From contig JADGAR010000022.1 of the NCBI GenBank assembly GCA_015231915.1, positions 824 through 59,422 of the forward strand: a stretch of DNA of 58,599 nt, read 5' to 3'. The stretch comes from Magnetococcales bacterium. GTDB taxonomy: Bacteria > Pseudomonadota > Magnetococcia > Magnetococcales > Magnetaquicoccaceae. A program made the translations under genes and the position numbers. Shown one piece after another: positions 7,302 through 51,867 of the stretch (the first letter of the stretch is position 1; each line of letters opens with the position of its first letter). The notes under the pieces are model-generated. The model saw only the letters and a list, made by a program, of their open reading frames with translations, did not search any database and was not told where the DNA came from.

Positions 7302-8428
7302 ATCATCACATCGATCATGGTCACATCATCCGCGTTCCGGCTGGAACCGACGTGCCGCGCCAACACGGCCAGAAGATCATCCAATGCCCCGTCCCGGGCC
7401 ACCATGTCGGACAGGAATGTCTCCAGTCCGGTCACCCCGAACATCTCCCCCTCCGGGTTGAGCGCCTCGATGATGCCATCCGAGTAACAGATCAAACGAT
7501 CGCCGGCATCGAGGTCAAGCCGGATGGGATCGCCATACCGCGCATCGCCGACAATCCCCAGGGGGAGCGCAAACGACGCCAGGGAAGCATGCCTCACCCC
7601 GCCGCGCCACCAGAGCACATCGGGAATCCCCGCGTTCCAAAGGCGGCCCCGGGTGCGCTCCGGATTGACCTCCAGCAGGGCGGCGGCGCAGAACATGCCC
7701 AGGGGCAGACGCCGATGCAGTTGACGGTTGAGTTCCAGCAGGAGTTCCCCGGCATCGGCGCCGTTGCGGGCCATCTGATGAAAAATGCAGGCGACCAGCG
7801 GCCCGCCGATGGCGGCGGTAAGACCATGACCGGTGAAATCCCCCAGCATCACCCACTGCCTGCCATCGGCGGTGAAGGCAGCCAGCAGGATGTCCCCCGC
7901 AGTCGCTTCCACCGACGAGAACAGATGGCGGATATGGCGGGGGTCGAGCAGGTCCGCGTCCCGCATCTTGAGGAGGATGTTTTCGATCACCTCCCGTTCC
8001 TCGAGCAGCAAATGATTTTGTTCCGCGAGCCTTTGCCTGGCCTCCCGCAGGGCGAGATGGGTCTCGATGCGGGCCAGGACGATGGGAATCAGGAAGGGCT
8101 TGGTGATGTAATCCACCGCACCGAGGCGCAAACCTTCCAGTTCGCTGTCCATCTCGGTTCTGGCGGTGACGAAGATGATCGGGATCTCGCGGGTCGCCGG
8201 ATCCTCCTGCAGCCTGCGGCACACCTCGTAGCCATCCATGTCCGGCATCATGATGTCCAGCAGGATGATGTCTGGCATGGGCTGCACCTTGACCGCGCGC
8301 AGGGCGACCTGGCCGTTGGGGGCGGGCCGCACCACATAATCGGCGACCAGGGCGCCCTTGAGGACATCGATGTTTTCGGGGATATCGTCCACGACCAGGA
8401 TGATGGGTTTGCGCGCATCCCGTGTCAT
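7298..8428 (-). CDS. Response regulator with PP2C/SpoIIE phosphatase output
   Basis: Cytoplasmic response regulator of 376 residues, RsbU-like in design. The N-terminal receiver (about 8-124) carries D58 in LLDIMMPDMDG. A coiled linker (about 125-160) leads to a SpoIIE/PP2C-type Ser/Thr phosphatase domain. Metal-binding motifs are visible: GDFTGHG and, near the end, YSDGIIEA. The usual GGDFYD entry motif is degenerate (TAGDILLA). Such proteins dephosphorylate anti-sigma-factor antagonists of the STAS family; no STAS or anti-sigma gene lies in the window, so the target is unknown. It overlaps the HD-GYP gene upstream and the PhnD-like gene downstream as ATGA junctions. Its receiver closely resembles those of the two genes before it. 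Confidence 0.9.
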   Translation of the reverse strand: MTRDARKPIILVVDDIPENIDVLKGALVADYVVRPAPNGQVALRAVKVQPMPDIILLDIMMPDMDGYEVCRRLQEDPATREIPIIFVTARTEMDSELEGLRLGAVDYITKPFLIPIVLARIETHLALREARQRLAEQNHLLLEEREVIENILLKMRDADLLDPRHIRHLFSSVEATAGDILLAAFTADGRQWVMLGDFTGHGLTAAIGGPLVACIFHQMARNGADAGELLLELNRQLHRRLPLGMFCAAALLEVNPERTRGRLWNAGIPDVLWWRGGVRHASLASFALPLGIVGDARYGDPIRLDLDAGDRLICYSDGIIEALNPEGEMFGVTGLETFLSDMVARDGALDDLLAVLARHVGSSRNADDVTMIDVMI

Positions 8429-9495
8429 GATTCGTGATCCTGGTAGCGTTCCATGATGGCAACAATTTCGGGACGCAAACCAACGAACAGGGAGGCCAAC
8501 CGGGGATCGAAGTGTTCCCCGGTCTCCCTGGCGATCAACCCCAGTGCGTCATCCACGCTCCAGGATTTCTTGTAGGGCCGCACGGAGGTCAAGGCGTCGA
8601 ACACATCGCCGATGGCGCTCAGACGACCGGCAAGGGGGATCTCCTCGCCGACCAGTCGGCGGGGATAGCCGCTGCCATTCCATTTCTCGTGGTGGGTCAG
8701 GGCGATCAGCGCCCCGAGATTGAGCAGATCGGAGTGCTGCGCGCCGATGATATCGAACCCCATCTGGCAGTGGGTGCGGATCACGGCGAACTCCTCTTCC
8801 GTGAGTTTGCCGGGCTTGAGCAGGATGTGATCCGGGATGCCGATCTTGCCCACATCGTGCATCGGGGCGGCGATCATCAGTTGTTCGGCCTCCTCCTGCC
8901 CCACCCCGGCGCGCAGGGCCAGCAGGTGGACATAGCGGCTCATGCGCATGACATGCATGCCGGTCTCGTTGTCCCGGTATTCGGCGGCGCGCCCCAGTTG
9001 ACGAATGACCTCCTGCCGGGTCTCTTCCAGTTCCAGGTTGCGGATCATGAGTTCGGCGGTGCGTACCTGGACCAGATCGGCCAGATTGCGCCGATGGGCG
9101 AGCATGGCCAGATGGGTCCTCACCCTGGCCAGGACGATGGGCGGGCTGACCGGCTTGACCAGATAGTCCGCCGCTCCCAACTCGAACCCCCGGATCTCGT
9201 CCTCTGTTTCGGATCGGGCGGTGACGAACAGGATCGGGATGTCACGGGTGAGATCCCCCTCCTTGAGCAGGCGGCAGACCTCGTAGCCATCCATGCCCGG
9301 CATCATCACGTCGAGCAGGATCAGATCCGGCGGGTTGGCCGATTGCGCGATCTTGAGGGCCACCCGACCGTTGGTCGCCACCTGCACCCGGAAATGGGGC
9401 AACAGGATGCCCTTCAGGACATCCAGATTTTCCGGGGTATCGTCCACGATCAGAATGGTCTTTTCTCCCGTCCATTCCGCGAGATTACTGGTCAT
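8425..9495 (-). CDS. Response regulator with HD-GYP phosphodiesterase output
   Basis: RpfG-like response regulator of 356 residues predicted to hydrolyse cyclic di-GMP. The receiver (about 12-130) has D62 in [11 protein letters not shown]. After a coiled-coil linker the HD-GYP domain shows the metal-binding HD at H213-D214 (MHDVGKIGIPDH), the HHEKWNGSGYP motif at about 268-278, and GDVFDALTSVRPYKK. All signature residues expected for activity appear present. The ATG at 9495 was chosen because GGAGG lies at the right distance and the receiver starts at once; open sequence further upstream belongs to the kinase gene, with which it overlaps by 11 bases. No GGDEF cyclase is in this window, so the cyclic di-GMP source is elsewhere. 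Confidence 0.92.
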   Translation of the reverse strand: MTSNLAEWTGEKTILIVDDTPENLDVLKGILLPHFRVQVATNGRVALKIAQSANPPDLILLDVMMPGMDGYEVCRLLKEGDLTRDIPILFVTARSETEDEIRGFELGAADYLVKPVSPPIVLARVRTHLAMLAHRRNLADLVQVRTAELMIRNLELEETRQEVIRQLGRAAEYRDNETGMHVMRMSRYVHLLALRAGVGQEEAEQLMIAAPMHDVGKIGIPDHILLKPGKLTEEEFAVIRTHCQMGFDIIGAQHSDLLNLGALIALTHHEKWNGSGYPRRLVGEEIPLAGRLSAIGDVFDALTSVRPYKKSWSVDDALGLIARETGEHFDPRLASLFVGLRPEIVAIMERYQDHES

Positions 9496-11893
9496 CGAGA
9501 TCCTCCATCGCGATCCCCTCTTCCATGGCCCATACCCGCAGCCGCTCCAGGCCGGTCTCGAAATCATACACGGCCAAGGCGGCACGCAGGCCCTCTGCCC
9601 TTTGCCGTCGCGCGCCGCAAGGACACGAGGCGACCAACTCGTCCACCACCCGCTCCACTGCCGAATCGTACACCCCCAACAGCCTGACCGCATCCCGGAA
9701 CAGCCCCGCCAACCGCTCCGGCGAGAGTTCCTTGCACAAGGCATCCTCTTCCCGGATCGCCGGCACCATCTCCGGTTCCACCTCTTCCCGCGCCGCCGGT
9801 TCCATCTCCCCGACCGGACCCTGGTGCTTGAGAAACGACAGGGTGAAATAAAAACGGCTGCCCACTCCCGGATGGCTCTCCACGCCGATGCGGCCTCCCA
9901 TCATCTCCACCAGCCGCTTGGAGATCACCAGACCCAGGCCGGTCCCGCCATACTTGCGGGTGATGGAGCTGTCCCCCTGGGTGAATTCCCGAAACAGGCC
10001 CCGCAACTGTTCCTGGCTCATGCCGATACCGGTATCTTGCACCGTGAACCGCAGACTCACCCGTTCCGGGTTCTCCTCCTCCACCTCGATGCTCAGGTGA
10101 ACCGACCCTTTTTCCGTGAACTTGATGGCATTGCCGGCCAGATTGGCCAGCACCTGTCCCAGCCGAAATGCATCTCCTTGTAACAGATACGTTACTTTTT
10201 TACAAGTGTCGAGAACCAACTGCAACCCTTTCTGCCGGCTGGAGACGCTCAACAGGGCCTCCACCCGGCCCAGGACCTCCTCCAGGGCGAAGGGGAAATT
10301 CTCCATGGTCAGCCTGCCGGCCTCGAGCCTGGAAAAATCCAGAATGTCGTTGACCAGATGGAGCAGGGTCTTGGAGGCGAGCTGGACCTTGAGCAAATAA
10401 TCCCGCTGCTGAACGGTCAGGGTGGTTTGCAGGCAGAGGTGGGTCAGACCGATCACCGCGTTGAGCGGCGTGCGGATTTCATGGCTCATGTTGGCCAGGA
10501 AATCCCCCTTGGCGCGGCTGGCCGCCTCGGCCTGCTGCCTGGCGTCCACCAGACGGGCATGGATGGCCTTCTGCTCCGTGATGTCCACCAGGACGCCGAT
10601 CATGGCGGGCAAATCCTGATCCGTGCGCCGGAATTTGCTCAACAGGAGATCCATGGCGCACGGACGCTCCTCCCCGCAGGCCCGCAGTTCCGCCTCCATG
10701 TGGAGCCGTTCCCTCTGCGGGTCGGTCAGCAGGGTGGTCACCATGCCCACGATCTTGTCGCGATCCTCCTGGTGGAACATCTCGTGCAGTTCCAACCCCT
10801 CCGTATCGCCATCCTCCCGACCGATGAAGCGGCGAAACGGGACATTGGAAAAGATCAACCGGCCATCGTTGCCGAGAAAGAAGATCGGCAACGGCACAGC
10901 GTCGATCAACCAGCGCAGGAGCTTGCGCTCCTCCATGAAGGCCTGCTGCGCCTTCTGACGCTCGGTGACATCCCGGATCACCCCCACGGTGCCGATGTAC
11001 TGACGGGTGCGGTAGGCAGTGGCGTTGCCCACCTCGCCGTACAGGCCGGTGCTGTTGACCTCCACGTTGACCAGGCGGTCGTCGATGTTTTTGAGTTCGA
11101 ACACCCCGTCCGTCATCCCCTTGCGGGTCTTCAGGCGAATCTCCAGGCCAACGGTCATGCGCATACCGGAACGCCGCTCATCGAAGAGCTTCTGTTCCGG
11201 ATTGGCATTCCCGCTGCCGATCCGCTCCAGCACCTTGTTCAGGGTGACGTCCGGGATGTCCGCGCTGTGGATGATCTCGGTGAAATGCCTGCCGATCAGA
11301 TCGGATTGATGATAGCCGAGCCGTTCGATGGATTTGTTCAGAAACGTGAATTTTCCCTCCGTATCGATCTTGTAGACGATGTCCGGGATGGTCTGCACCA
11401 GGCCGCGAAACCGGTCCTCGGAGGCAGACAACTGCTCCATGCTGTCGGTGAGGCGTTCGTTGATCTCGTACATCCGCCGGTTCTTCTCTTCCAGTTCCTG
11501 GCTGGCGCGGCGCAGGGCCAGGTGGGTGCGCACCCGGGCATGCAGGATGTGCGGCGAGACCGGCTTGGTCAGATAATCCACCGCGCCGAGTTGCAGCCCC
11601 TCCAGTTCGTCCTGGATCTCGCCCCTTGCGGTGACGAAGATGACCGGGATCTCCCGCGTGATCTCGCTGGCCTTGAGCCGGCGGCAGACTTCGAAACCGT
11701 CCATGCCCGGCATCATCACGTCCAACAGGATCAGGTCCGGCTGCGGGTCCAGCCCTGCCAGCCGCAAGGCCACCTGACCGTTGATGGCGGGACGCACCAT
11801 GTACTCCTCCATCAGGGCGGTCTTGAGCACATCCAGATTTTCCGGGGCGTCATCCACGATCAGAATGGATGGCCTGGCCGCATTTTCAGGCAT
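9485..11893 (-). CDS. REC-PAS-PAS histidine kinase without HPt domain
   Basis: Soluble kinase of 802 residues with no obvious membrane segment. Order: receiver with D58 (about 8-125), coiled coil (about 126-160), PAS (about 160-315, with a long insertion), second PAS (about 325-445), HisKA with H471 in [12 protein letters not shown], and HATPase with GGTGLGL. A C-terminal helical module (about 735-802) is the same kind as in the neighbouring hybrid kinases. Unlike them it has neither a C-terminal receiver nor an HPt domain, so phosphate from H471 must go to another protein or to its own N-terminal receiver. The ATG at 11893 has GGAGGAGG upstream and follows the previous kinase with an 8-base overlap. 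It could phosphorylate the HD-GYP and PP2C regulators encoded next; this is inferred from order. Confidence 0.9.
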
Positions 11894-14800
11894 GGTGGAC
11901 CTCCTCCTGACTCCGCAAAATGTGCACCGCCGCCTCGAAATCGTAGCGACCAACCAGTTGTTCCATCTCCCTCAGCCACTCCGGCGCCTGATTGGCCGCA
12001 AAGGTGGTGCGCAACTGAGCCAGGGTTTTTTCGATGGAGGCATCGTAAATCTGCAACTGCTCACCGGCCAACCGCAACAGCTCCCGGCGCCGGACGAGCA
12101 GTTCTCCGGTCTCCTCCACAACACCCGGCGCCTGCTCCGGTTGCGGGGGGACAAGCATCTCGTCGAGCATGGCGCACAACTCGGCCAGCGACCTGCCGGC
12201 GGCAGTCAGCAACGGCTCCAGGCGCGCCCCATCCTCGCCGGCCCGAATGGCCTGCTCCAGGACATGCGCCCTGTCCGACAACTCCCTGGCGCCAATGGAG
12301 GCCCCCACGCCCTTCAGGGTGTGGACCATCCGCTCCGCCGTGGCCATATCCCCTTCCGCCAGCGCCCGGCGGATGGCGCCCTCGGCCTCGCCCTGATTGA
12401 CGCGAAACTTCGCCAGCAGGTTCAGATAGCCCCGCACGTTGCCCCCCATGCGACGCAGACCGTCCCTGGCATCCAGGCCGGGCAGGTCGGGCAGGGTGTC
12501 GCCGGCCTCGGGCATCGGCTTGTCCGTGGCGCTGGCCGGGAACGGCGCCGGGGAGGCCGGCTTGATCCAGCGCGCCATGGTCGCGAACATGGCGCGCGGC
12601 TCCACCGGCTTGGCGATGTGATCCTGCATCCCGGCCTCCAGGCAGAGATCCCGGTCCCCGGCCATGGCGTTGGCCGTCATGGCGATGATGGGCAGCCCCG
12701 CGAAACGGGAATCCTGACGGATCCGGCGCGTGGCGGTCAGGCCATCCATGACCGGCATCTGCATGTCCATCAACACCCCGTCCAGGGTTTCCTGCTCCAC
12801 CATGACGACCGCCTCCTGGCCGTTGACGGCCAGCAGCACGGTGATGTTGGCCTGTTCCAGGAGTTCCCTGGCCACCTGCTGGTTGATCTCGTTGTCCTCC
12901 ACCAACAAAATCCGCGCCCCGGACAGCACGGCCATGAAATCCCGCTCCCCGACCAGGCTCGCGCCGCTCTCGCGACTGCTCCCCGCAAAGCGACCGAAAG
13001 CCTCCATGACCGCCTCGAACAGGAGATTCTGACTGATGGGCTTGACCAGAAAGCCGTTCACCTCGGCCTCCTCCACGGCGCGACGGACCACATGTTCCTC
13101 GCCGTAGGCCGTGGCCATGATCACCACCGGCTGCCGCGTCAACCCCAGATCGTGACGCATTTTGGCGGTCACGGTGATGCCGTCCATCAGGGGCATCATG
13201 TAATCCATCACCACCAGGTCGAAGGGGGTTCCCACCATCTCCGCCTCCTGGACGGCGATGATCGCCTCCGCCGCGCCGTTCGCCTTGCTCACCTTGAAGG
13301 TGAACGAGGCCAGGTAATCCGCGATCACGTTGCGGGCGCTTTCGTTGTCGTCCACGACCAGCGCCTTCAGGCCGCGCAGGTCCACCGCCGGCAGCAGGGA
13401 TTTTTCCACTTCCTGGGGCACGTAGCCCATACAGACGTTGAAGATGAAACGGGTGCCAACCCCCGGTTCGCTCTCCACCCGGATGGAACCGGCCATCATC
13501 TCGATCAACCGCTTGGCGATGGTCAGCCCCAGCCCGGTGCCGCCATACTTGCGGGTGATGGAGGTGTCGGCCTGGGAGAAGGCGCGAAACAGTCCTTTGC
13601 ACTGCGCCTCGGTCATGCCGATGCCGGTATCCCGCACGGTGAATTGCAGACAGAGCAGGGATTCGTCCTTGTCCAGCAATTCGGTGACCACCGCCACCTC
13701 CCCCTGTTCGGTGAACTTGATGGCGTTGTTGGCGAGGTTGACGAGAATCTGACCCAGGCGCAACGGGTCTCCCCGCAGCACGGGCGGGATGTTGGGCGCG
13801 GTCTCCATGAGGAACTCCAACTGTTTCTCCTGCGCCTTCAGGGAAATCATCGAGGCGAGGTTCCCCAGCACCTCCTCCAGGGTGAAGTCGATGGTCTCCA
13901 TGGCCAGCCGCCCGGCCTCGATCTTGGAAAAATCGAGGATGTCGTTGATGATGCGCAGCAACGAGGTGGCCGAATTGTGGACCTTGCGCAGGTAATCCTT
14001 CTGACGCGCGCTGAGCTGGGTTTGCAGGCACAGATGGCTCAAGCCGATGATGGCGTTCATCGGGGTGCGGATCTCATGGCTCATGTTGGCCAAAAAGTCG
14101 CTCTTGGCCCGCGCCGCCGCCACGGCCTGCTCCTTGGCCACCCGCAGGCTGGACTCCAGTTCCTTCATGGCCGTGATGTCCGTGCGGATGGAGACGTATT
14201 GAAACGGTTTTCCCTGTTCGTCCAGCATGGGGACGATGGTGGCCCGCACCCAATAATACGAACCGTCCCGCGCCTGGTTCTTCACTTCCCCGTGCCAGCT
14301 CCTGCCGCTGACGATGGTGCGCCACATCTGACGGTAGAACTCCGGGCCGTGCTCGTCGGACTTGACCAGGCGGTGATTGCTGCCCAACAACTCCTCACGG
14401 GTATAACCACTGATGGCGACAAAATTGTCATTTACGTAAATAATAATTCCACGAGCATCCGTGGTGGAGACGATGGCATGTTCGTCCAGGGCACGCTTCT
14501 GAAACAGCAGTTCCCGTCGCGCCTCGGTCTCCGCCTGTTCGGAAACACGGCGGGCGACCAGGAACAGGGCCACGATCCAGGCGATCGCCAGGCTCATCAG
14601 CAATCCGCCCAACAGCAGCATGGAGGTGATGGGGCGGTCCAACAGATAGCCCCAGTTCCAACGAGACTCCCCAATCTGGAACAGGATCGTCCAGGAGGGC
14701 CGCTCCCCCTGGCCGGCGACCGTCAACCGCCGGAAGAGAAACTGCCGATGGGCGGTCTGAAACTCCCCGGCGGGACGCTGGCCCACGAATGCCCAAATGG

Positions 14801-19017: not shown

Positions 19018-19437
19018 CTAAAAAATGCCTTTTGAATTCAAAAACTCTCCCATTTTTTTATCCAGGCCGAGAATATGCCCGATCAACCAATCCCGCAACG
19101 TGGATTCCATTTCCTCTTTCAAACAACCGACCTTGCCGGCGAGCAGCCTGACCCGAAACCCGCCGACCGCTTCCAGCAAATGCCGGTGCTCCTGCAGATG
19201 CTCCTGATGGAAGGGACAGCCAAGACGCTGCATGTACGCCTCTTCCCGCTCGAAATGAAAGATCACATAATGGGTCAATTCGTCGAGCACCCCCTCCAGG
19301 ACCCGTTGCGGTTCCGAGGAGAGGGCGGCTCCGAACAAACGGTTGATCATCTTGATCAGCTTCTTGTGATCCTCGTCCACATCGGCCACACCGACGCTCA
19401 AATGGTTCTTCCAGAGGATGATGGAAGGTGAGGCCAT
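19018..19437 (-). CDS. Bacteriohemerythrin
   Basis: Single-domain hemerythrin of 139 residues that binds O2 at a non-haem di-iron site. All seven expected ligands can be placed: H24, H61 and E65 (HFEREE), H80 and H84 (HLQEH), H121 and D126 (HILGLD). The ATG at 19437 has AAGGAG at the correct spacing. It begins 19 bases after the caspase stop and ends 2 bases before the PAS kinase start, so it belongs to the same operon. Such proteins act in O2 storage, delivery to respiratory or metabolic enzymes, or aerotaxis, and are common in microaerophiles. Here it may act as an O2 carrier or sensor for the kinases; this is inference from position. Confidence 0.95.
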
Positions 19438-19456: not shown

Positions 19457-21181
19457 TTAAGGACCGGTATAGACCCCGTGGATGCCGATCTGATGATTGG
19501 CGCCCTTGAGATGACGATCCAGGCTGGCCTCCAGTTGGGTGACCAGTTTTTTGCCGTTCATCCCCTGCAGGTCGGCATGCAGCCCGGTGAGGGGCTTTTC
19601 GCTCAGGATGACGACGAAGTGATCGGCCCCGAAGGGAGGTTCCACATTGAGATCCAGGGTGTGGGGCTGATTGACCGGAATCTGCAAGGGGTCCTTGATC
19701 TTGCCGTCGTCGATGGGATAAAGGTAATTGATGACCCCGTCCGAGGCGATGTTGAACAGGGTGAGGAAGGGATGATGCTGCCCACTGGTCTCCAGGGTGA
19801 CCCGCTCGCCGTTGCGATGGATCTTGTCGTTGGGTTTCAGGGCCATGGTGGGACTCTTGGCGGCGCTGCGCTGCTTGATGCGCTCCACCACCAGCAACTT
19901 GTCGAAAACCTGGTTGGCATAGGAGATGTCCACCGTGGGCACAGCCGAGGTCCCGGCCCGCTTGAAGGCGCGGGTGGCGGCAATCTGGGGCTGCTTGCCG
20001 TTGTAGAGTTCATCCCCCAGTTGGGAGACGATCCGCTCTTCGGTCATGTTCCAGATCACCTGGGCCTGCTGCGGGGAATCGACCACCTGGATCCCGGGAG
20101 TCAGGTGGGGACGCCACTGATCCTCGGGCAGTCCGGCAGGGATCCCGGTGACATGCAACTTGAGCAGGGCGGGCGCGGCGGTCTCCTTGGCCGGGGATTT
20201 TTGCTTCTCCTCCGGTTTGGCAGCCGTCTCCCCCCCCTTCTTGCCGCTGATGGGCAGGGAGAAATCGTCCCCGCCGCCAGAGAACTGGGGATGCTGCTGA
20301 CCATCCACCAGCATGCGGACGTTCTCCTTGACGTAATGTTCCAGTTCCCCCTTGGAGAGATTGCCGTCCTTGTTGGTGTCGGCAGCGCCGCGAAAGGCCT
20401 TGGCGACGGCGACGCTCAGGGCGCCACGCGGCTTGTCATCCGTCATGATCTCCGGGTCCAGTTCGTGATCCGCCACCGCGCTGATGCCGAAGACCGTGGG
20501 GGGCAAGGCGTCCGGCGAGGCGTCGCCGCGCATGCCGGCTGGCGCGGGCAGCGGCTTGGAAATGACATCGCCGGCGCGGGAGGTGTACAACTGCTTGAGG
20601 GCATCGTCCTTGAAGATGATGGGCGGCACGAAGCGATGCTTGGTCTTTTTCGGCGCACTGGAAAAGGAACGGGTCATGGTGCCGGAGTGACAGGAATCGG
20701 CCACGAAGAGCACCTTGAGATGGGCGGCGTCCTCCCGGAGCATCACGCCGATCTCGTCGTCCACGATGCGCTGGTAGGTGCTCTTGCCCTCCACGTTGAA
20801 ATCGGCCAGCAGGAAATTCTCGTCGCGACCGTCGGTTTCGCTCCCCTTGACGTGTTCCGGCTCCTGGGCGCCGTGCCCGGCATAGGTGAAGACCAGCACG
20901 TCCCCCTTCTTGGTGTGGGAGATCAACTCCTTCCACTTGGCGAACACCGTGTCACGGTCGGCCTTGCGGTCGAGCAGCTCGACCACCTCCTTGGCCCCGG
21001 CCTGGCGCAGGGCGGCGGCGATATCCCTGGCGTCATTGATGGCGCCGTCCAGCTTGGTCTGATGTTGATAGTCGTTGACGCCGATAACAAAACCGTACAG
21101 ATCGGCGGCCAGCGCCGCGTCGGGCAGGCTCGCCCCCGCCAGGAAAAGGCTCAGCGCCAGTGCGGAAAGTGGTTTGTTCAT
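19457..21181 (-). CDS. Secreted caspase-fold protein with EF-hand and DUF4384-like domain
   Basis: Caspase-like (peptidase C14) protein of 574 residues with a signal peptide (MNKPLSALALSLFLAGASLP, cleavage near AALAAD), so it should act in the periplasm or outside. The catalytic dyad is H103 (FTYAGHGAQ) and C164 (VADSCHSG). Residues 268-279 (DTNKDGNLSKGE) form a canonical EF-hand loop, suggesting Ca2+ control as in metacaspases. After a Lys/Glu/Pro linker (about 310-340) a C-terminal domain (about 340-574) contains NDKIHRNGERVTLE and LFNIASDGVINYLYP, typical of DUF4384. The start has GAGG upstream and lies 10 bases after the WD40-caspase gene. Substrate unknown; caspase-fold proteins of this class normally cleave after basic residues, but that is family knowledge. 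Confidence 0.88.
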   Translation of the reverse strand: MNKPLSALALSLFLAGASLPDAALAADLYGFVIGVNDYQHQTKLDGAINDARDIAAALRQAGAKEVVELLDRKADRDTVFAKWKELISHTKKGDVLVFTYAGHGAQEPEHVKGSETDGRDENFLLADFNVEGKSTYQRIVDDEIGVMLREDAAHLKVLFVADSCHSGTMTRSFSSAPKKTKHRFVPPIIFKDDALKQLYTSRAGDVISKPLPAPAGMRGDASPDALPPTVFGISAVADHELDPEIMTDDKPRGALSVAVAKAFRGAADTNKDGNLSKGELEHYVKENVRMLVDGQQHPQFSGGGDDFSLPISGKKGGETAAKPEEKQKSPAKETAAPALLKLHVTGIPAGLPEDQWRPHLTPGIQVVDSPQQAQVIWNMTEERIVSQLGDELYNGKQPQIAATRAFKRAGTSAVPTVDISYANQVFDKLLVVERIKQRSAAKSPTMALKPNDKIHRNGERVTLETSGQHHPFLTLFNIASDGVINYLYPIDDGKIKDPLQIPVNQPHTLDLNVEPPFGADHFVVILSEKPLTGLHADLQGMNGKKLVTQLEASLDRHLKGANHQIGIHGVYTGP

Positions 21182-21191
21182 GCATGCCTCA

Positions 21192-24100
21192 TCATGGTTG
21201 CACCTTGGTCAAGGCGAAGTTCAGGTCATTGAGATTGCTGCTCCGGGTCACGCCCACCGGGCGCTGGGTGTACTGGGGCTGCTCCTTGCTGATCTTTTGC
21301 ATGGCGCGGTCCACGAAGATGGAGATCTGACTGGCAACCACCTCCGTGTCGGCGCGACCTGCAGCATCCCCCTTCAGGCCGGTCAGGACGGCATGGGCAA
21401 AAAGCCCATGGTCCGTGCCCTTGCCGTTCTTGTCGATGTACTCGTCGGCGGACTCCTGGCGGGGACCGGAGGCGGCCACCAGCAAAAGATCGCCGGTACG
21501 CTCCCGCACCTTGCTGATCCCCTCGCTCTCCTGGTCGAGGTCCAGGGTCCCCCCCTTCACCCGGAAGGCGCCGGAGTGGCAGGAATCGAGAAACAGGACC
21601 ATCTTGGCCGACTTTTCCGCCAGGGCCGCCAGTTTCTCCCCCAGCAGGGACTGGGAAAGGGCGGTCTTTTCCCAATTATCGGTCGTGCGGGCGTTCTGGG
21701 TGATGAAATAATAGGTATTGTCCTGATTGGTGCCGTGCCCGGCCAGATAGATCACCACCGTATCCCGCGATCCGACCCGCGCGGCCAGCCGGTCGAAGGC
21801 GGCAAGCACGTTGTCGCGGGAGGCCTTTTCATCATACAGGGCTTCAACCGCCACCTTGCCGTATTCGTCGCTGTGCTGTTTTTCCATCAACCCGGCCACG
21901 GCCCTGGCATCCTTGACCGCAAAACGCAATCTGGCTTCGGGTTCGGCATAGTTGTCCACCCCGATGGCCAGGACGTGCATGGTGGGCTTGTCGCCACGGG
22001 AGGCCGCAGTCTGGACGGGCGGGACGATCAGGTTGACCACCCCGCTTTGCCCATGGACGGCGTTGGCGGCATCGAAGGCGCGAATCCGGATGCGGTTCTC
22101 GTCGGGCAGGAGTTCCAGGTCCCGTTCCAGGAGGAGCGGCTCCTCCTTGGCCGGGGCGGCGGTCGGGGCGCGGGCGAAACCACGGGTGCGGGCATTGGCG
22201 TTCTCCACCACCACGCCGTTGCGCAGCAGATGGATCTCGCTCACCCCTCCCTCGCGCTCCTTGAGCTTGAACTTGAGCCGCACGTACCGCTTGCCTTCCG
22301 GCAATTGATGGGTATGCAGCACCGGTTCCTGGTCCACAGGGGCGCGGGAGAAACCACGGGTGGTCCCGCCCTTGCCCACCGGGAAGCAGTTCTCCTTGCC
22401 CGCCTCCGGGGAGTCGGCGCGCCGGAAACCGCGCGTCCCGCCGAGGGTGTCGAGCAAACAATATTCCACCACCTCCACCTCCGGGACCGGGGCGGCGAAC
22501 AACCGCCCCACCGCCGCATCGGCCTGGGCGAGCCGGGCGGTCAGTTCGGCGTCGTTGCCGTCCCCCTTCATCTTGCGGCCCAGCAAAGAGGGCGAAAAGA
22601 AACTCTGGTAGAGCTGACCGAAGTCGATCCAATCCGGCGCCTTGCTCCCGCCCCGGTTGAGGTGGAAACCGGCCAGCCCCTTGCCGCCCTCTTGCGAGTG
22701 GGCGAAAATCCCCTCGCGACTCCAGGCGATCCACTGGCGGCTATCCGCATGGATGAAAAAGGTGGCGTACTCCTCCAGGAGCAGGGGCGCGGCAGCGCGG
22801 GGACGATACCAGTGCATGGTGCCGTCCGCCAGGGCCGCGACCAGATAACGGCCATCCCTGGAGAGATTCACGCCGTACACCGCCGCCGGGACATCGGTTT
22901 TGGCCATCTCCTTGCCTGCGGCGTCGTACCAGCGCAGATAGAAATCGGTGCCCAGGACGAACCCCTTGCCGTCCGGGGCGATGGCCAGGGCGCGAGCCAC
23001 CTCGCCGCGCGCCAGGGCGAGGGTGGCACCGTTCTTCAGACGCGGGGCGGGGCTGTTTTCCCACTGGGTGATCCCCAGGGTGGCATCCTCGGTTTTTGGA
23101 GGGGTCAACCCGGCGTCCGCCGGGGGGTTGACCGCCAGGGTCTGCCGGGCGATGTCGAAGCGGGCCGCGTCCTTGATGCCGGGGCGCAAACGCCACTCCA
23201 CCACCAGACCATCGGCGGAGAGCAGAAAACGCTGCTTGAAGACGCCACGAAAATCGGTGATGGGACTCTTTTTCCGCAACCCCGGCTTGCCGTCCTTGCC
23301 GAGCACGCCCCAGGCGGGTTCGGCGCTGGCATAGATCACGGAGCCGTCCGGGGTCCGTTCCAGGGAGGTGATGGTGTTGTCGGCCACGGGCAGGTCCACC
23401 GGCTTGCCGTTCCCCTTTGGCCAGCGCCTGAGGATGCGCTTTTCCCCCTTGACCGCGCCGCCGGCGGCCAGCAACTCCCCGCCGGACCAGGCCACCACCG
23501 AGAGATTGCCGCCGCTCAAACCGCTGGCGTCGGGCTGCCCGGTCACCTGACCGGAAGCCGGATCGACGAGATCCACCCGCGCCTGATCCAGATACCCCAC
23601 GGCCAGCCGCCCGCCATCTTCGGAGAAGGCCAGACCGTAAGGCTGTTTGCCCCCCTTGCCCTTCACCTCGCGCAGGCGGCGCAACTGGCCGTCGTACAGG
23701 CGGACGATCCCGTCGTCGGCGCTGACGGCCAGGCGGCCATCCGGGGCAAAGGCGAGCCAGTTGGCGGAGACCGTGCCATACTCCCGGTCCTCGGCCATTT
23801 TTTTGCCATTCGCGGCATCCCAGAGCGCCACCCCCTTGCCGTCCCCGAAGGCGGCGGCGAAACGGGTGCCGTCGGGAGAATAGGCCATATGGAGAATCGT
23901 GGCGGGCAGTTTGGCGAGCCGTCCCTTCATCTTCAGGGTGGCGGTGTCGAAGAGGTAGAGCGCGTAGCTCCCCTCGCCGCCGGTGACCGCCCCGGCCACC
24001 AGGGCGGTACGGCCATCGGGCGAAAGGGCGCCCGCATAGAGCGCCCCTTCCACCCCCTCGCCGATGGGTACGCGCAGCACCCCTTTCAGGCCCCCTTCCG

Positions 24101-24305
24101 GCAGGTTCCACAGACGCGCGCTCTTGTCGTCCGAGACGGTCAGCAGGAGTCTCCCCTCGCGATCCGAGGCGATGCGGTTGATGATGGCCACATGCTGACC
24201 CGCGTCGATGCGCAGATAGGGGAGTTCCCTGGTCCCGGTCGCGCCGACAGGCGGCGCCCACACAAGCCAGGCAACCACCGCGACGACCCACCGGAGCCGG
24301 GTCAT
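21192..24305 (-). CDS. WD40-repeat protein with C-terminal caspase domain
   Basis: Exported 1037-residue protein. A signal peptide (cleavage near residue 22) is followed by a WD40 propeller (about 35-500) with several recognisable blades, such as SDDKSARLWNLPEG and SADDGIVRLYDGQL. A linker and Ig-like region (about 580-760) holds three copies of a TRGFxRA peptide. The C-terminal caspase domain (about 785-1030) has dyad H857 (YLAGHGTNQ) and C909 (FLDSCHSG). Its start overlaps the lipoprotein stop (ATGA). Propeller plus caspase is a known bacterial combination in which the propeller presumably binds a partner and controls the protease. Export makes an intracellular defence role unlikely. The target is unknown. 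Confidence 0.88.
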   Translation of the reverse strand: MTRLRWVVAVVAWLVWAPPVGATGTRELPYLRIDAGQHVAIINRIASDREGRLLLTVSDDKSARLWNLPEGGLKGVLRVPIGEGVEGALYAGALSPDGRTALVAGAVTGGEGSYALYLFDTATLKMKGRLAKLPATILHMAYSPDGTRFAAAFGDGKGVALWDAANGKKMAEDREYGTVSANWLAFAPDGRLAVSADDGIVRLYDGQLRRLREVKGKGGKQPYGLAFSEDGGRLAVGYLDQARVDLVDPASGQVTGQPDASGLSGGNLSVVAWSGGELLAAGGAVKGEKRILRRWPKGNGKPVDLPVADNTITSLERTPDGSVIYASAEPAWGVLGKDGKPGLRKKSPITDFRGVFKQRFLLSADGLVVEWRLRPGIKDAARFDIARQTLAVNPPADAGLTPPKTEDATLGITQWENSPAPRLKNGATLALARGEVARALAIAPDGKGFVLGTDFYLRWYDAAGKEMAKTDVPAAVYGVNLSRDGRYLVAALADGTMHWYRPRAAAPLLLEEYATFFIHADSRQWIAWSREGIFAHSQEGGKGLAGFHLNRGGSKAPDWIDFGQLYQSFFSPSLLGRKMKGDGNDAELTARLAQADAAVGRLFAAPVPEVEVVEYCLLDTLGGTRGFRRADSPEAGKENCFPVGKGGTTRGFSRAPVDQEPVLHTHQLPEGKRYVRLKFKLKEREGGVSEIHLLRNGVVVENANARTRGFARAPTAAPAKEEPLLLERDLELLPDENRIRIRAFDAANAVHGQSGVVNLIVPPVQTAASRGDKPTMHVLAIGVDNYAEPEARLRFAVKDARAVAGLMEKQHSDEYGKVAVEALYDEKASRDNVLAAFDRLAARVGSRDTVVIYLAGHGTNQDNTYYFITQNARTTDNWEKTALSQSLLGEKLAALAEKSAKMVLFLDSCHSGAFRVKGGTLDLDQESEGISKVRERTGDLLLVAASGPRQESADEYIDKNGKGTDHGLFAHAVLTGLKGDAAGRADTEVVASQISIFVDRAMQKISKEQPQYTQRPVGVTRSSNLNDLNFALTKVQP
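22165..22440. repeat. Three short direct repeats encoding TRGFxRA
   Basis: Bases 22165-22188 and 22339-22362 match at 23 of 24 positions. A third, more diverged copy lies at about 22414-22440. On the coding (-) strand they encode TRGFARA, TRGFSRA and TRGFRRA. Confidence 0.7.
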
Positions 24306-25462
24306 GACTGCGTCACCGGGAGACGATCCAGCCAGTGGTTCCAGCCCAGATCGACCCGCCCCTCACCGCCCAGGGGACACACCCCACGCCAGGCCATGAA
24401 ACCGTCGGCGGGCATGGGATAGAGGGAAATCTTCTCGAAGCCGCCATCCTCCACGGCGAGATTCTTGGCGAACTCCTGCTCATGGACCTTGATGCTCTCC
24501 TTCTTGGCCTGATTGGCGGAGAGTGCGGAGGTGTTGGCGGCCATCTGGGTATTGCCTCCGGTCTTTTCGTTGATACTCTTCTTCTGTTCGGCGGCCTTTT
24601 TCGCGGCGGCGATACGCTCCTTGCGCTCCTGGTCCAGGGTGGCGACCTGTTTGGCATCCTTTTTCTTGCCGGAACTGGTCGCCTGCTTCTTCCTGGCAAT
24701 CTCCTGATCGATGCGGGCGACCTCCTGCCTGTGTTCCTGCTCGATGGTCTGGTTGTTGGCGGCGATTTTGGCCTTGACCTTCTGCTGCTCCGCCGGCGGC
24801 AACTTGGAGATGTCGAACTCGGCGGCCATCTGCTCGTTGGCGTACTTGTACTCGTCGTAACGCTTGCCGATGTTTTCGGTCACCAGCCGCATCAACTCCT
24901 TGTCCTTGCCCACCTGCTGCTGCAATATCGCCCACTGGGCCTGGGCCTGCTCGCGGGTGATCCGCTTGGCGGCATAATCGGCACGGATTTTGTCCCGCTG
25001 CCGGATGCGGCAGGCCATCAACTCCTTGATGGCGAGATCGGCCTTGTCCAGTTGCGCGCCTTCCTTTTCCAGATCCTGGTTGATGGCGAGAATCGCCTGG
25101 TCGCGACCTTTCTGCATCTGGTTCTTGTAGTAGCCTCCCAGGGCGCCAGCCATGCCCCCGACCGCCGCGCCCACCAGGGCGCCCTTGCCCACGTCCTTCT
25201 TCTTGCCCTGCATTGCGGCCAACAGCCCGCCGGCCACCGCGCCCGCCGCCGCCCCGACCAGGGCGCCCTGCAGCAAGTCCTCGCCAAAGAAATTGCCCGT
25301 GGAGTCCAAGGCCACCACATTGTTGCGGCAGGGGTCCGACCCGTCGTCCGCGCCGATCCGCTCCTGGCGCGTGGAAACACAACTACTGACCACCATACTG
25401 CAAGCCACCAGGGCAGCGGTATACCGATAAGGATGGTTGGGATATTGTCGGTTACAAGTCAT
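24302..25462 (-). CDS. Glycine-zipper lipoprotein with long coiled coil
   Basis: 386-residue envelope protein. After a basic N-terminus a hydrophobic stretch ends in VVSS-C (about residues 24-28), a usable lipobox, so it is probably a lipoprotein. Residues about 63-113 hold two glycine-zipper helices, GALVGAAAGAVAGGLL and GALVGAAVGGMAGALGG, able to pack in a membrane. The rest (about 115-330) is highly charged, Lys/Gln/Glu-rich coiled coil, followed by a short globular tail. An AAAGGA precedes the ATG. It is the first gene of the long - strand run and overlaps the WD40-caspase by 4 bases, so it is likely the membrane anchor or pore partner of the two caspase proteins. I do not recognise a specific family beyond the glycine zipper. 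Confidence 0.75.
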   Translation of the reverse strand: MTCNRQYPNHPYRYTAALVACSMVVSSCVSTRQERIGADDGSDPCRNNVVALDSTGNFFGEDLLQGALVGAAAGAVAGGLLAAMQGKKKDVGKGALVGAAVGGMAGALGGYYKNQMQKGRDQAILAINQDLEKEGAQLDKADLAIKELMACRIRQRDKIRADYAAKRITREQAQAQWAILQQQVGKDKELMRLVTENIGKRYDEYKYANEQMAAEFDISKLPPAEQQKVKAKIAANNQTIEQEHRQEVARIDQEIARKKQATSSGKKKDAKQVATLDQERKERIAAAKKAAEQKKSINEKTGGNTQMAANTSALSANQAKKESIKVHEQEFAKNLAVEDGGFEKISLYPMPADGFMAWRGVCPLGGEGRVDLGWNHWLDRLPVTQS

Positions 25463-25595: not shown

Positions 25596-25634
25596 TTGTC
25601 AAATGCACGCCATTCATTTTGTCAGCAAGAGCAA

Positions 25635-26024
25635 ATGCACATGCCTGAAGCGACAATTCTGATCGTGGACGATCAGCCCATCACCATCCAGATCCTCGAC
25701 GAAATCCTCCACAAGGAATATCGTCTGCTGTTCGCCGGCAACGGCATGGAGGCCCTGGACTCGGTGGAAGACCACAGGCCCGATCTGATCCTGCTGGACG
25801 TGGTGATGCCAGGAGTGGACGGCCATCAGGTCTGCTCCATTCTCAAGTCCGATCCGGCCACCCGGACCATACCCATCCTCTTCCTCACCTCGATGAACGA
25901 TGAACGGGCCGCCGCAACCGGTATGCAACTGGGCGCAGCGGACTACATCGTCAAACCCTTCGACCCCGCCACGGTGCTGACCAAGGTGCACCGCATCCTC
26001 GCCCGGGCCACCCCCGATGCATGA
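25635..26024 (+). CDS. Stand-alone receiver domain protein
   Basis: Single-domain response regulator of 129 residues, CheY-like in size, with D55 in LLDVVMPGVDG, the acidic pair VDD near the N-terminus, the T/S (FLTS) and K (VKPFD) switch residues. No output domain. It could serve as a diffusible phosphate carrier or sink for the surrounding kinases. The start is uncertain: ATG at 25635 or 25641 (AAGAG at 25627) is preferred over a TTG at 25596. It overlaps the next gene by 8 bases. Confidence 0.85.
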   Translation: MHMPEATILIVDDQPITIQILDEILHKEYRLLFAGNGMEALDSVEDHRPDLILLDVVMPGVDGHQVCSILKSDPATRTIPILFLTSMNDERAAATGMQLGAADYIVKPFDPATVLTKVHRILARATPDA

Positions 26025-27183
26025 ACCGCCCCCCCACCAACGGGTCGTCCTGCTCGTGGACGACGTGGAAACCAACATCCTGATGCTCAACGAGGTGTTG
26101 CGCGACGAATACCGCACCCTCTTCGCCACGAACGGCGAGGAGGCCCTGCGCATGGCCCGCGAAAAACTGCCGGACCTGATCCTCCTGGACATCCAGATGC
26201 CGGGCATGGATGGCGTGGAGGTGTGCAAACGGCTCAAGGAGGATCCGCTCACCAAACGCATTCCGGTGATCTTCATCACGGCCATCTCGGCATCGGCCAC
26301 GGAAACCGAAGGGCTGGAAGCCGGGGCCGTGGATTACATCACCAAACCGATCCGTCCCGACATCGTGCGCTTGCGCGTCCGCAACCACCTGGCCCTGAAA
26401 AACTATCAGGACCACCTGGAGGAACTGGTCAGGGAGCGGACCCGCGAAATCGAGGCGGCCAAGGAGGCCGTGGAGGCGAGCGATCGGGCCAAGACCCGGT
26501 ACTTCATGATTCTGGGCCACGAACTGCGCACCCCGTTGAACGTCATCATCGGCTTTGCCGACCTGCTGATCCACACCCTGCACGAAGAGGAGACGATCGG
26601 CAGCGCGCAACGCATCCTTTTGGCCGGCGAACGACTGCACGCCATCATCGAAAACATCATCGACCTGGTCAAACTGGAGACCGGCATCGTCTCCCCAGGC
26701 CGGCACCCGTTCCACCTGCGCGAAGTGGTCGAGTCGATCAGCCATTCGATCAGCGGGCGTCACGCGGAAAAAGAGATTGCCTTGCAGATCGAAATCGCGC
26801 AAGATGTCCCCTCGGCCCCCACGGGAGACGGGCCAAGGGTCCAGCAGGTGTTGCGTCACCTTCTGGACAACGCCTTCAAGTTCACCCCCGCCGGGGGGAC
26901 GGTACGGCTGACGGTCTCGCAGGGGAATGCAACCGAAGGAGCGGGTACGCAGCTGACATTTTCGATTCGGGACACGGGACCGGGCATCCCGCCGGAGAAA
27001 CGCCAGGAGATCTTCAACGCCTTCACCAGCGGCAGCGACGACCCGTACACCCAGCACAAAGGGGGAGTGGGAGTCGGCCTGACCATCGGTTACCATCTCG
27101 CGCGACTGATGCAAGGTCAACTGACACTTCAAGAGAGCGGTCCGGCAGGGAGTGAATTCCTCTTTTCCGTGCCGTGCGGTTGA
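26017..27183 (+). CDS. Receiver-histidine kinase
   Basis: Soluble 388-residue protein: receiver (about 10-125, D58), short coiled coil (about 128-158), HisKA with H168 in LGHELRTPLNVI, and HATPase (about 270-388) with DTGPGIPPEK and GVGVGLTI. There is no PAS, membrane segment, HPt or C-terminal receiver, so it is regulated by phosphorylation of its own receiver and must pass phosphate on in trans. This is the hybrid type in which a receiver controls a kinase. It sits between a lone receiver and a PstS-like binding protein, all on one transcript with small gaps or overlaps. Confidence 0.9.
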   Translation: MHEPPPHQRVVLLVDDVETNILMLNEVLRDEYRTLFATNGEEALRMAREKLPDLILLDIQMPGMDGVEVCKRLKEDPLTKRIPVIFITAISASATETEGLEAGAVDYITKPIRPDIVRLRVRNHLALKNYQDHLEELVRERTREIEAAKEAVEASDRAKTRYFMILGHELRTPLNVIIGFADLLIHTLHEEETIGSAQRILLAGERLHAIIENIIDLVKLETGIVSPGRHPFHLREVVESISHSISGRHAEKEIALQIEIAQDVPSAPTGDGPRVQQVLRHLLDNAFKFTPAGGTVRLTVSQGNATEGAGTQLTFSIRDTGPGIPPEKRQEIFNAFTSGSDDPYTQHKGGVGVGLTIGYHLARLMQGQLTLQESGPAGSEFLFSVPCG

Positions 27184-27202
27184 GCGAGGGGAAACCAACG
27201 TG

Positions 27203-28216
27203 ATGTCGAGACTCTTCTGGAACACGCTCCTGGCCGGAGTGCTTTGGCTGTGCGTTCACGCACCCGCCATCGCCGGCGAAGCCAACCTCATCGGACCCGC
27301 CTTTTCGGATCCGAACCAGCTCGTCCCCATGCCGCAGGCATGGATCCAACGCGGGATCGAATACGACGCGGAGGCCAAGAAGGCCAAGGCGGACATCGCC
27401 ATCACCCTCGACCAGCAGATCTACCTGATGCTGGGCAAACAAATCGCCGAATACGGCAGACGCCAGGGGATCAACATCGTCAACCAGGAGGGGACCTGCG
27501 GCATCTCGGACGGCTTCGTCGCCCGGAAACAGGTGGATCTGGCCGGCTATTGCTGCGCGCCCGACGCCAAGCAGCGCCTGCCGGGCCTCAAGCACTACAC
27601 CCTGGGGATCGCGGCCAAGGTGTTCATCACCCACCCCGACAACCCGGTGGACAATCTCACCCTGGAACAGATCCGCAAGATCTATCTCGGGGATTACACC
27701 CGCTGGTCGGAGATCCCCGGCTTGCAGGCCGCCCCCAACCGCCCGATCCATGTGGTGGGACGCCTGCACTGCAAGGCGCGTCCCGGCCATTGGCGGCTGC
27801 TGCTGGACACCGACAACCTCTTTACCCCGCGCATGAAAGAAGTCTCCAGCATCCCGGACATGGTCACCGAGGTGATGGAGAAACGCGACGCGATCGGTTA
27901 CGAAACTTTTACCAATATCCTCCATTACCAAAAAAATCCCGGCCCCAAATTCCTGCGCGTGGAAGGCCACGACCCCCATGACCAGGCGGCCATCGCCACC
28001 CTGCGCTATCCCATCTACCGCACCTTCGCCATGACCATCTGGGAGGATCGCACGCTGCGCAACCCCCATGTGGACGGTCTGGTGGCATTCATGCTGCAGG
28101 AAGTGGAAAAACTGGGACCGGAACACGGCTTCGTGCCGGTTTCCCGGCTGCGGGAGGCCGGATGGGTCTTTGCCGGGGAGGAAGTGGTAGCCCATCCCCC
28201 GCCATCGCCGCGCTGA
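27203..28216 (+). CDS. PstS-like periplasmic binding protein
   Basis: Exported binding protein of 337 residues with a signal peptide (MSRLFWNTLLAGVLWLCV..., cleavage after AIAG). Features of PBP-like/PstS proteins are the GTCGISDGFVARKQVDLAG region and NLTLEQIRKIYLGDYTRWSEI, which matches the conserved L...QL..I..G....W..I motif; a later MEKRDAIGYETF resembles the V...GAIGY element. The ATG at 27203 follows GAGGGGAA; a GTG lies just before it. No ABC transporter genes are adjacent. The 1135-residue hybrid kinase starts 15 bases after its stop, so it probably feeds ligand information to that kinase. Phosphate is only one possible ligand. Confidence 0.8.
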   Translation: MSRLFWNTLLAGVLWLCVHAPAIAGEANLIGPAFSDPNQLVPMPQAWIQRGIEYDAEAKKAKADIAITLDQQIYLMLGKQIAEYGRRQGINIVNQEGTCGISDGFVARKQVDLAGYCCAPDAKQRLPGLKHYTLGIAAKVFITHPDNPVDNLTLEQIRKIYLGDYTRWSEIPGLQAAPNRPIHVVGRLHCKARPGHWRLLLDTDNLFTPRMKEVSSIPDMVTEVMEKRDAIGYETFTNILHYQKNPGPKFLRVEGHDPHDQAAIATLRYPIYRTFAMTIWEDRTLRNPHVDGLVAFMLQEVEKLGPEHGFVPVSRLREAGWVFAGEEVVAHPPPSPR

Positions 28217-31852: not shown

Positions 31853-32080
31853 ATGACCCAAGACCCCATTTTGCCGGAATTGACCCAAGATGATTTCTTT
31901 CGCATTGCACGCGATCTGAGGCACTGGACTCAGACGGACGCTTTCATTGAAGATGTCAAAACAAGTCAACGAGGGCGAAAAAAGGCGTTCGAGGAAGAGA
32001 TGAGACGCAGCCGGATGAGTGACGAGGAGTTATCCAGGACCGTGGACTGGGTCGAACCGGATTACGTATCGGCACCATGA
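31853..32080 (+). CDS. Small charged protein of unknown function
   Basis: 75 residues, highly charged, no signal peptide or membrane segment; I do not recognise it. The N-terminus is acidic (LPELTQDDFF), the middle basic (SQRGRKKAFEEEMRRSR). ATG at 31853 has AAAGG about 9 bases upstream, whereas an in-frame TTG at 31802 lacks a site. It has its own near-consensus promoter and is followed by hairpins. Size and charge would suit an antitoxin or small regulator, but nothing in the sequence proves this. Confidence 0.6.
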   Translation: MTQDPILPELTQDDFFRIARDLRHWTQTDAFIEDVKTSQRGRKKAFEEEMRRSRMSDEELSRTVDWVEPDYVSAP

Positions 32081-32085
32081 GCCAG

Positions 32086-32105
32086 CCGCCGGGTCTGTCC
32101 GGCGG
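32086..32105 (+). terminator. GC-rich hairpin after the small gene
   Basis: CCGCCGG (32086-32092) pairs with CCGGCGG (32099-32105). It starts 6 bases after the stop of the small gene and is followed by GGGGTTTTC, a weak T tract. Confidence 0.4.
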
Positions 32106-32199
32106 ACCAAGGGGTTTTCAAAGCAGCACATCGAATCACCAGTGCCGCCATGCAACTGGATCAGGGCTGGTTTCGTTTTTGGCATTGATCCCCACACGC

Positions 32200-32220
32200 A
32201 ACGCCCCCGGACGGGGCGTT
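32200..32220 (+). terminator. Intrinsic terminator-like hairpin
   Basis: AACGCCCC (32200-32207) pairs perfectly with GGGGCGTT (32213-32220) around a 5-base loop, followed by CTTG. It lies 102 bases before the 1052-residue gene, just after a possible 12-codon leader (32150-32188). The rest of the gap 32081-32321 holds no other gene that I can support. Confidence 0.5.
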
Positions 32221-32265
32221 CTTGCCTGTGCCACCGAAAACAACTTTGTCAATTAATACACATGA

Positions 32266-32294
32266 TTGACTTCAGGTCGGCTTGCACATACAGA
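32266..32294 (+). promoter_or_regulatory. Weak candidate promoter for the 1052-residue gene
   Basis: TTGACT (32266-32271), 17-base spacer, TACAGA (32289-32294). The -10 is poor, but it lies after the terminator-like hairpin and 28 bases before the start codon. Confidence 0.25.
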
Positions 32295-32321
32295 GCAAGA
32301 AGAAGAAAATAAATTCAAGCC

Positions 32322-35480: not shown

Positions 35481-35511
35481 AAACGACACGCGCAGGAAAC
35501 AGAAGAGGGAT

Positions 35512-35540
35512 TTGTGCACGAGACGATTTTGTGGTATCGT
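35512..35540 (+). promoter_or_regulatory. Candidate promoter of the glucan synthase operon
   Basis: TTGTGC (35512-35517), 17-base spacer, TATCGT (35535-35540), about 85 bases upstream of the GH17-GT2 start in a 145-base gap with no other visible feature. Confidence 0.33.
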
Positions 35541-35625
35541 GGTCAATCCGTATCTCGCCAACCAGGTGAAAGACGGCAGGCAGCTTCGTGTCACCACACT
35601 TTCGCAGGATCGTGGATCGCATTTT

Positions 35626-51815: not shown

Positions 51816-51867
51816 AGCCCCCCCCAAAAAAACGGTCCGAGAGCACAATCATGGCAGCATTGACGCA

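Follow-up and report, generated by a model that had tools for sequence, protein, structure and literature searches.

A TagQ-like lipoprotein and two caspase homologues with export signals form a candidate envelope-sensing triad in Magnetococcales

The window analysed here is a stretch of 58,599 nucleotides from contig JADGAR010000022.1 (positions 824 to 59,422) of the Magnetococcales assembly GCA_015231915.1, the 4.0 Mb genome referred to below as G000. Three consecutive genes occupy positions 19457–25462 on its minus strand, exactly the coordinates given in an earlier note made from the sequence alone. The first encodes a 386-residue lipoprotein with a glycine-zipper region and a coiled coil (LIP; 24302..25462), the second a 1037-residue, predicted exported protein made up of WD40 propellers, a beta-sandwich and a caspase domain (WDC; 21192..24305), and the third a 574-residue, predicted exported metacaspase-like protease with a C-terminal DUF4384 domain (CDU; 19457..21181). 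The LIP and WDC open reading frames overlap by 4 nucleotides, and WDC and CDU are separated by a gap of 10 nucleotides. All features of these proteins given below lie on the same strand.

CDU matches the caspase family PF00656 (E 6e-15), and its caspase domain spans residues 27–299 (20285..21103) by Pfam and by comparison with the Protein Data Bank; its DUF4384 domain (PF14326, E 7e-7) covers residues 456–530 (19592..19816). In WDC, Pfam recovers WD40 repeats (E 1e-17) and a caspase domain (PF00656, E 7e-16) at about residues 775–1020 (21246..21983). The WD40 beta-propeller region, also present in the AlphaFold2 model, extends over about residues 30–560 (22626..24218), and the predicted strands of a beta-sandwich linker region follow at about residues 609–761 (22023..22481), with Cys616, Cys640 and motif-bearing loops whose predicted local distance difference test (pLDDT) score is below 50. 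A fold search with the WDC model returned WD40-propeller matches only. The His/Cys dyads that the earlier note had reported are indeed intact, His103/Cys164 in CDU and His857/Cys909 in WDC, and are retained in the aligned orthologues. The solved structures nearest to the p20 region of CDU are GSU0716 and type I metacaspases such as Mca1, with similarity also to TbMCA2. Acidic residues (Asp50/Asp162 in CDU, Asp799/Asp907 in WDC) stand beside the NDA and DSC motifs, and from the cases of TbMCA2 and MALT1 we take them to line the S1 pocket. Judged by these residues, both proteins have the acidic S1 site of the metacaspase-like class C14B, which prefers a basic P1 residue. C14B enzymes cleave C-terminal to arginine or lysine (PMC4357240, PMC5756287), and CDU is probably an Arg-specific, Ca2+-dependent enzyme of this kind. 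The EF-hand that the earlier note had assigned to CDU survives as one canonical loop, DTNKDGNLSKGE (residues 268–279; 20345..20380), kept in 7/7 aligned CDU homologues; at 14.7 bits it falls below the Pfam EF-hand cut-off of 25.9 bits.

LIP begins with a signal peptide and the lipobox VSSC, with a predicted lipidated Cys28 (25379..25462). Its glycine-zipper region (residues 65–113; 25124..25270) passes the Pfam cut-off for PF13441 (E 2.4e-7). TagQ is a known outer-membrane lipoprotein, and by sequence LIP is a distant homologue of this outer-membrane sensor: comparison of the LIP and TagQ alignments with hhalign gave a probability of 99% (E 6.6e-18, 186 columns), and the similarity spans mature LIP beyond the glycine zipper. 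The alternative that LIP is a generic glycine-zipper, OmpA-like lipoprotein is weakened by this homology well past the zipper. Among the best LIP matches outside Magnetococcales, the Pseudomonas-type proteins are true TagQ (>500 bits), and the LIP homologues of Azospirillum score 66–71 bits against the NCBIfam TagQ model NF041250. On account of the TagQ homology, LIP would be lipidated in the outer membrane and anchor the module there. CDU and WDC have Sec-type N-termini, and the orthologues of all three proteins retain their signals despite sequence divergence in that region; in divergent LIP orthologues the lipobox recurs at the same site as LTGC, LSGC, LEGC or LAGC. The rule-based signal scan is lax, being positive on 44% of background genes, so the case for export rests on conservation among orthologues and on the analogy with TagQ. 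Both support the envelope location of the set that the earlier note had proposed.

The distribution of the genes was surveyed in 48 Magnetococcales genomes (E ≤ 1e-10 for LIP, ≤ 1e-150 for full-length WDC and ≤ 1e-60 for CDU). LIP and full-length WDC were found in the same 5/48 genomes (G000, its close relative G097, G002, G053 and G049), and CDU in those five and in G153. The five triad genomes represent three genera in three families, and their close relatives lack the genes, a patchiness from which the triad appears to have been gained or lost as a unit. The order LIP-WDC-CDU is contiguous in G000 and G097; LIP-WDC are adjacent in G002, and WDC-CDU in G053 and G049, with the G053 LIP gene at a contig edge. 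Conservation of the three genes together, on which the earlier note had made its reading depend, thus holds within the order, and it extends beyond it. A plasmid search recovered the full triad on three plasmids, of Azospirillum oryzae, A. lipoferum 4B and A. ramasamyi, in each case within a type VI secretion system (T6SS) cluster. Identity between the window and Azospirillum proteins is 36% for LIP, 36% over 97% of WDC and about 40% for CDU. The plasmid search with query P0001 gave no match at E ≤ 1e-10, presumably owing to filtering and database size, since direct comparison with the Azospirillum protein gave 2e-38.

In Azospirillum, LIP-WDC lie directly 5′ of tssL-tssM-tagF-vgrG, with tagH and a Ser/Thr kinase gene further downstream, while CDU is divergent and adjoins LIP. 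In Pseudoroseomonas cervicalis, LIP-WDC adjoin vgrG-tagH-tssK-tssL-tssM, with no CDU nearby, the chromosome not being covered. No paper on caspases in T6SS clusters was found in the open-access literature. A T6SS in the organism of the window was considered and rejected, as TssC/VipB genes occur in 0/48 of the Magnetococcales genomes. Whereas the Azospirillum triad neighbours a T6SS pathway of FHA and Ser/Thr kinase components, the Magnetococcales triad neighbours hybrid histidine kinases and response regulators with HD-GYP or SpoIIE domains. This two-component cluster is conserved between genera: the response regulator-HD-GYP gene of the window (8425..9744, minus strand) shares 65–68% identity with the genes adjoining LIP in G002 and G053, and a multidomain histidine kinase (9485..11953, minus strand) shares 47–55% with the kinase adjoining LIP in the same two genomes; response regulator-histidine kinases accompany them. 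The two settings suggest to us a single sensor front end that can be coupled to either of two outputs, the T6SS pathway or the two-component pathway.

A short motif, TR[GA][FLR]xR, recurs in both proteases. WDC has three copies between propeller and caspase, TRGFRR (residues 624–629; 22419..22436), TRGFSR (649–654; 22344..22361) and TRGFAR (707–712; 22170..22187), and CDU has TRAFKR between the caspase and DUF4384 domains (403–408; 19958..19975). Every copy in the window proteins overlaps a segment modelled with pLDDT < 50, and the positions are predicted to be disordered or flexible inter-domain linkers. The motif was counted in a set of 116 caspases drawn from 31 genomes. Among them, the 36 that belong to the five triad genomes hold 23 copies against 0.19 expected by shuffling (at most 2 in 300 shuffles); as the motif was defined post hoc on these proteins, the shuffle figure measures how enriched it is and does not amount to a blind test. 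The 80 caspases of the other genomes hold 2 copies, and the idea that the motif is a general caspase feature was rejected on that ground. Permutations of its first three letters gave 0 copies each in the triad-genome caspases, and nearby genes other than those for caspases hold 1 copy in 79,491 residues. At least one copy is present in 5/5 WDC and 6/6 CDU proteins of the triad genomes. A TRGL-like string is common just past the catalytic region of other caspases, and because the bare TRG count (65 versus 12–25) mixes the two, the longer motif was relied upon.

Genome-wide DNA patterns and the Azospirillum proteins served as independent checks. A pattern for TRGFxRA has 4 matches in G000, 4/4 in caspase genes, and one for TRGR-R[V/D] has 5 in G049, 5/5 in caspase genes, with background matches in two sister genomes. 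The strict motif search across the 48 genomes gave 14 matches outside G000 and G097, none at the caspase places, which is background. In the WDC alignment, two motif columns are common to Magnetococcales and Azospirillum (SRAFAR twice); these columns are absent from the WD40-caspases of Pseudoroseomonas and of four genomes with no close CDU homologue (G149, G177, G169 and G109). Synonymous codons differ from copy to copy, and in Azospirillum Ser is even encoded by AGC in one place and by TCC in another; a DNA repeat as the origin of the motif was rejected for this reason, and selection acts on the protein. The fourth motif residue covaries between WDC and the adjacent CDU, being F/F in G000 and G097, L/L in G053 and R/R in G049, and G002 has F/F although the two genes are unlinked. 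The 843-residue WD40-caspase of G049 likewise has R at this position, as do WDC and CDU of that genome. Elsewhere in G000, locus L094 (5241–8230; contig 49) contains two divergent exported caspase genes, one with TRGFGR at its mature N-terminus and ATRGVGNTRGLAQ past the catalytic region.

With a probability of roughly 0.5, the triad works as an envelope sensor of the TagQ type, whose Arg-specific caspase cleaves its partner at the motif and feeds a phosphorelay or a T6SS kinase pathway. Proteolytic processing is suggested by the combination of a predicted Arg-specific caspase and an Arg motif in its own and its partner's flexible inter-domain linkers. In this scheme, the caspases would take the place of TagR, the periplasmic partner of TagQ, and LIP in the outer membrane would recruit WDC as a periplasmic propeller-caspase. 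An envelope signal would then lead CDU, and perhaps WDC acting on itself, to cut after Arg of TR[GA][FLR]xR. Such cuts would detach the caspase domain of WDC from the propeller and that of CDU from DUF4384, so that CDU, by cutting itself and WDC, would part catalytic from sensory domains. From the altered complex a signal may pass through the inner membrane; its targets would be, in Azospirillum, the T6SS pathway of Ser/Thr kinase and FHA components and, in Magnetococcales, hybrid histidine kinases together with a response regulator-HD-GYP output. CDU is favoured as the reader of the motif because G153, whose CDU occurs without WDC or LIP, still has the variant SRGFVR. In MaOC1, activity requires release of p20 from the chain (PMC5756287), which fits processing of this kind. 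A more specific version is held only tentatively, namely a periplasmic caspase cascade as sensor, in which an exported caspase, by cutting a coevolving, lineage-specific linker motif, switches on a second caspase as well as itself, the cascade being a plug-in front end to T6SS threonine phosphorylation or a two-component phosphorelay.

Several observations weigh against a processed TagQ-type sensor. The three genes are spread over contigs or loci in G002, G053 and G049, and LIP scores 49 bits against NF041250, under its 300-bit equivalog cut-off. Two-component genes are very common in Magnetococcales, so that adjacency alone is weak evidence. At pLDDT 55, the structure model of CDU was too poor for a fold search. 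The motif count spans only about four independent lineages, the G049 WDC has no motif 2 in the aligned column (another copy lies nearby), and G053 has a further, unlinked CDU with F, against L in its WDC. The Azospirillum CDUs have no motif outside the post-Cys loop, which speaks against obligatory self-cutting.

The main rival explanation, itself rather unlikely, takes the motif to be a docking or inhibitory peptide whose Arg binds an active-site pocket as a pseudosubstrate, or the WD40 propeller, so that the caspases are held in an inactive complex. Confinement of the motif to the caspases themselves and its covariation genome by genome are also what a binding peptide would show. Arg peptides are ligands of propellers such as WDR5. 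An Arg-bearing inhibitory loop is known in a gingipain prodomain (PMC4357240). The propeller as reader is disfavoured by the WD40-only and WD40-caspase homologues of CDU-less genomes, which have no motif, and by the SRGFVR of the G153 CDU, which points to CDU instead; the CDU pocket may then bind the motif and leave it uncut. Envelope proteolysis or programmed lysis, with the caspases as executioners acting on envelope proteins or on the cell, is improbable. Active-type dyads, export signals and the wide association of caspase-like proteases with cell death would suit it, but the set contains no lysin, pore-former or toxin, and in both of its unrelated genomic settings it is surrounded by genes for signalling. 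Envelope signalling is better supported than lysis. Of what the earlier note had suggested for function, maturation is made plausible by the motif, surface proteolysis of other proteins finds no such backing, and lysis is disfavoured; its account was right on location and conservation and misplaced in emphasis. An envelope-acting defence against phages or competitors is equally doubtful. The generic caspase model of PADLOC matches WDC (with a weak HEAT-ARM match besides) and CDU, the patchy spread would fit horizontal transfer or repeated loss, and the Azospirillum genes are linked to a T6SS; however, a Pfam-level scan of the window and neighbours revealed no defence genes around the triad, no specific PADLOC system was matched, and known defence caspases work in the cytoplasm whereas the triad proteases have export signals. 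That three envelope genes of separate function are chance neighbours, as their splitting over loci in three genomes might suggest, is very improbable and largely refuted by co-occurrence in the same five genomes, contiguity in Azospirillum and the shared covarying motif; the triad is real.

The system most like the proposed sensor is TagQ-TagR(-TagST) of the H1-type T6SS of Pseudomonas aeruginosa, which has a glycine-zipper outer-membrane lipoprotein homologous to LIP; Azospirillum LIP-WDC occupy a comparable place in their T6SS cluster (tssL, tssM, tagF, FHA and kinase genes). The triad differs in having the caspases WDC and CDU for TagR, which has the FGE-sulfatase fold, in a LIP below the TagQ cut-off and, in Magnetococcales, in the lack of a T6SS. 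A TagQ-type sensor built with caspases would be a variant of this known sensor, and the covarying processing motif is possibly a new principle. Type I metacaspases and orthocaspases (Mca1, TbMCA2, GSU0716 and MaOC1; C14B) share the p20 His/Cys dyad and acidic S1 residues, and the triad proteases are distinguished by export, by the DUF4384 or propeller partner and by the repeated linker motif; according to a review (PMC4357240), conserved cleavage sites are lacking in type I metacaspases. A survey from 2012 (PMC3501461) describes WD40-metacaspases and FGE-sulfatase-metacaspases, some with possible signal peptides, and its text makes no mention of type VI genes; neither a TagQ-like partner nor the linker motif was found in the passages considered. 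The defence caspases of PADLOC differ from the triad in export signals, in that only generic models match it, and in its lack of defence neighbours.

If the triad is such a sensor, bacteria may employ a caspase cascade in the envelope for signalling and not suicide. To our knowledge, hardly any natural substrates of bacterial caspase homologues have been identified, and these proteins are mostly discussed in connection with death or defence in the cytoplasm; a conserved, covarying motif inside the proteases offers a candidate site that can be tested directly. From the link to TagQ and the T6SS follows a role open to experiment, namely control of a weapon or a phosphorelay by envelope sensing, and the occurrence of the triad in an order without T6SS suggests that a TagQ-type sensor exists independently of that system.

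Related proteins occur in other settings. A WD40-only homologue of the WDC propeller (about 600 residues; L069–L083, and L099 8173–9933), without caspase or motif, is present in nearly all Magnetococcales, several copies adjoining response-regulator genes. A second family, of exported WD40-caspases of about 840 residues, is also widespread in the order (L085 4095–6638, L089 6507–9038, L098 6671–9478). WD40-caspases of 847 residues have domains homologous to those of WDC, and their forms in G002 and G049 bear the motif. At L087 (5133–9692), the second CDU of G053 is divergent to the gene of an 876-residue lipoprotein that combines TPR and CHAT domains and is a further protease of the caspase clan bearing an export signal. 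At L102 (4876–12356) and L104 (4961–12432), in genomes without LIP, WD40-caspase lipoproteins adjoin FGE-sulfatase proteins, the fold family of TagR, and caspase-FGE-sulfatase fusions that begin with ATRGIG directly after the signal peptide. On Rhizobium etli p42e (L260, 7907–17692), a CDU-like caspase (30% identity) occurs with a DUF4384 protein, a trypsin-like protease, a serpin and a Ser/Thr kinase, possibly another exported protease cascade with its own inhibitor. On plasmid p2 of Azospirillum sp. TSA2s (L258, 5765–13138), a CDU homologue, two other caspases and OmpA-like and DUF4384 proteins adjoin type IV secretion genes.

Within the window, a response regulator and response regulator-histidine kinase pair lies divergent to the triad (25596..27183, plus strand). 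CDU is closely followed by a small hemerythrin gene (19018–19437), none being called there in G097, and then by a run of histidine-kinase genes that starts with a hybrid kinase. Two periplasmic proteins flanking the triad, one phosphonate-binding-like (6393–7301) and one of the PBP_like_2 type (27152–28216), adjoin hybrid histidine kinases and could be their sensors. The G+C content falls from about 0.62 to 0.49–0.53 at 32001–36000 and 50001–52000, and this drop suggests that these parts are acquired DNA.

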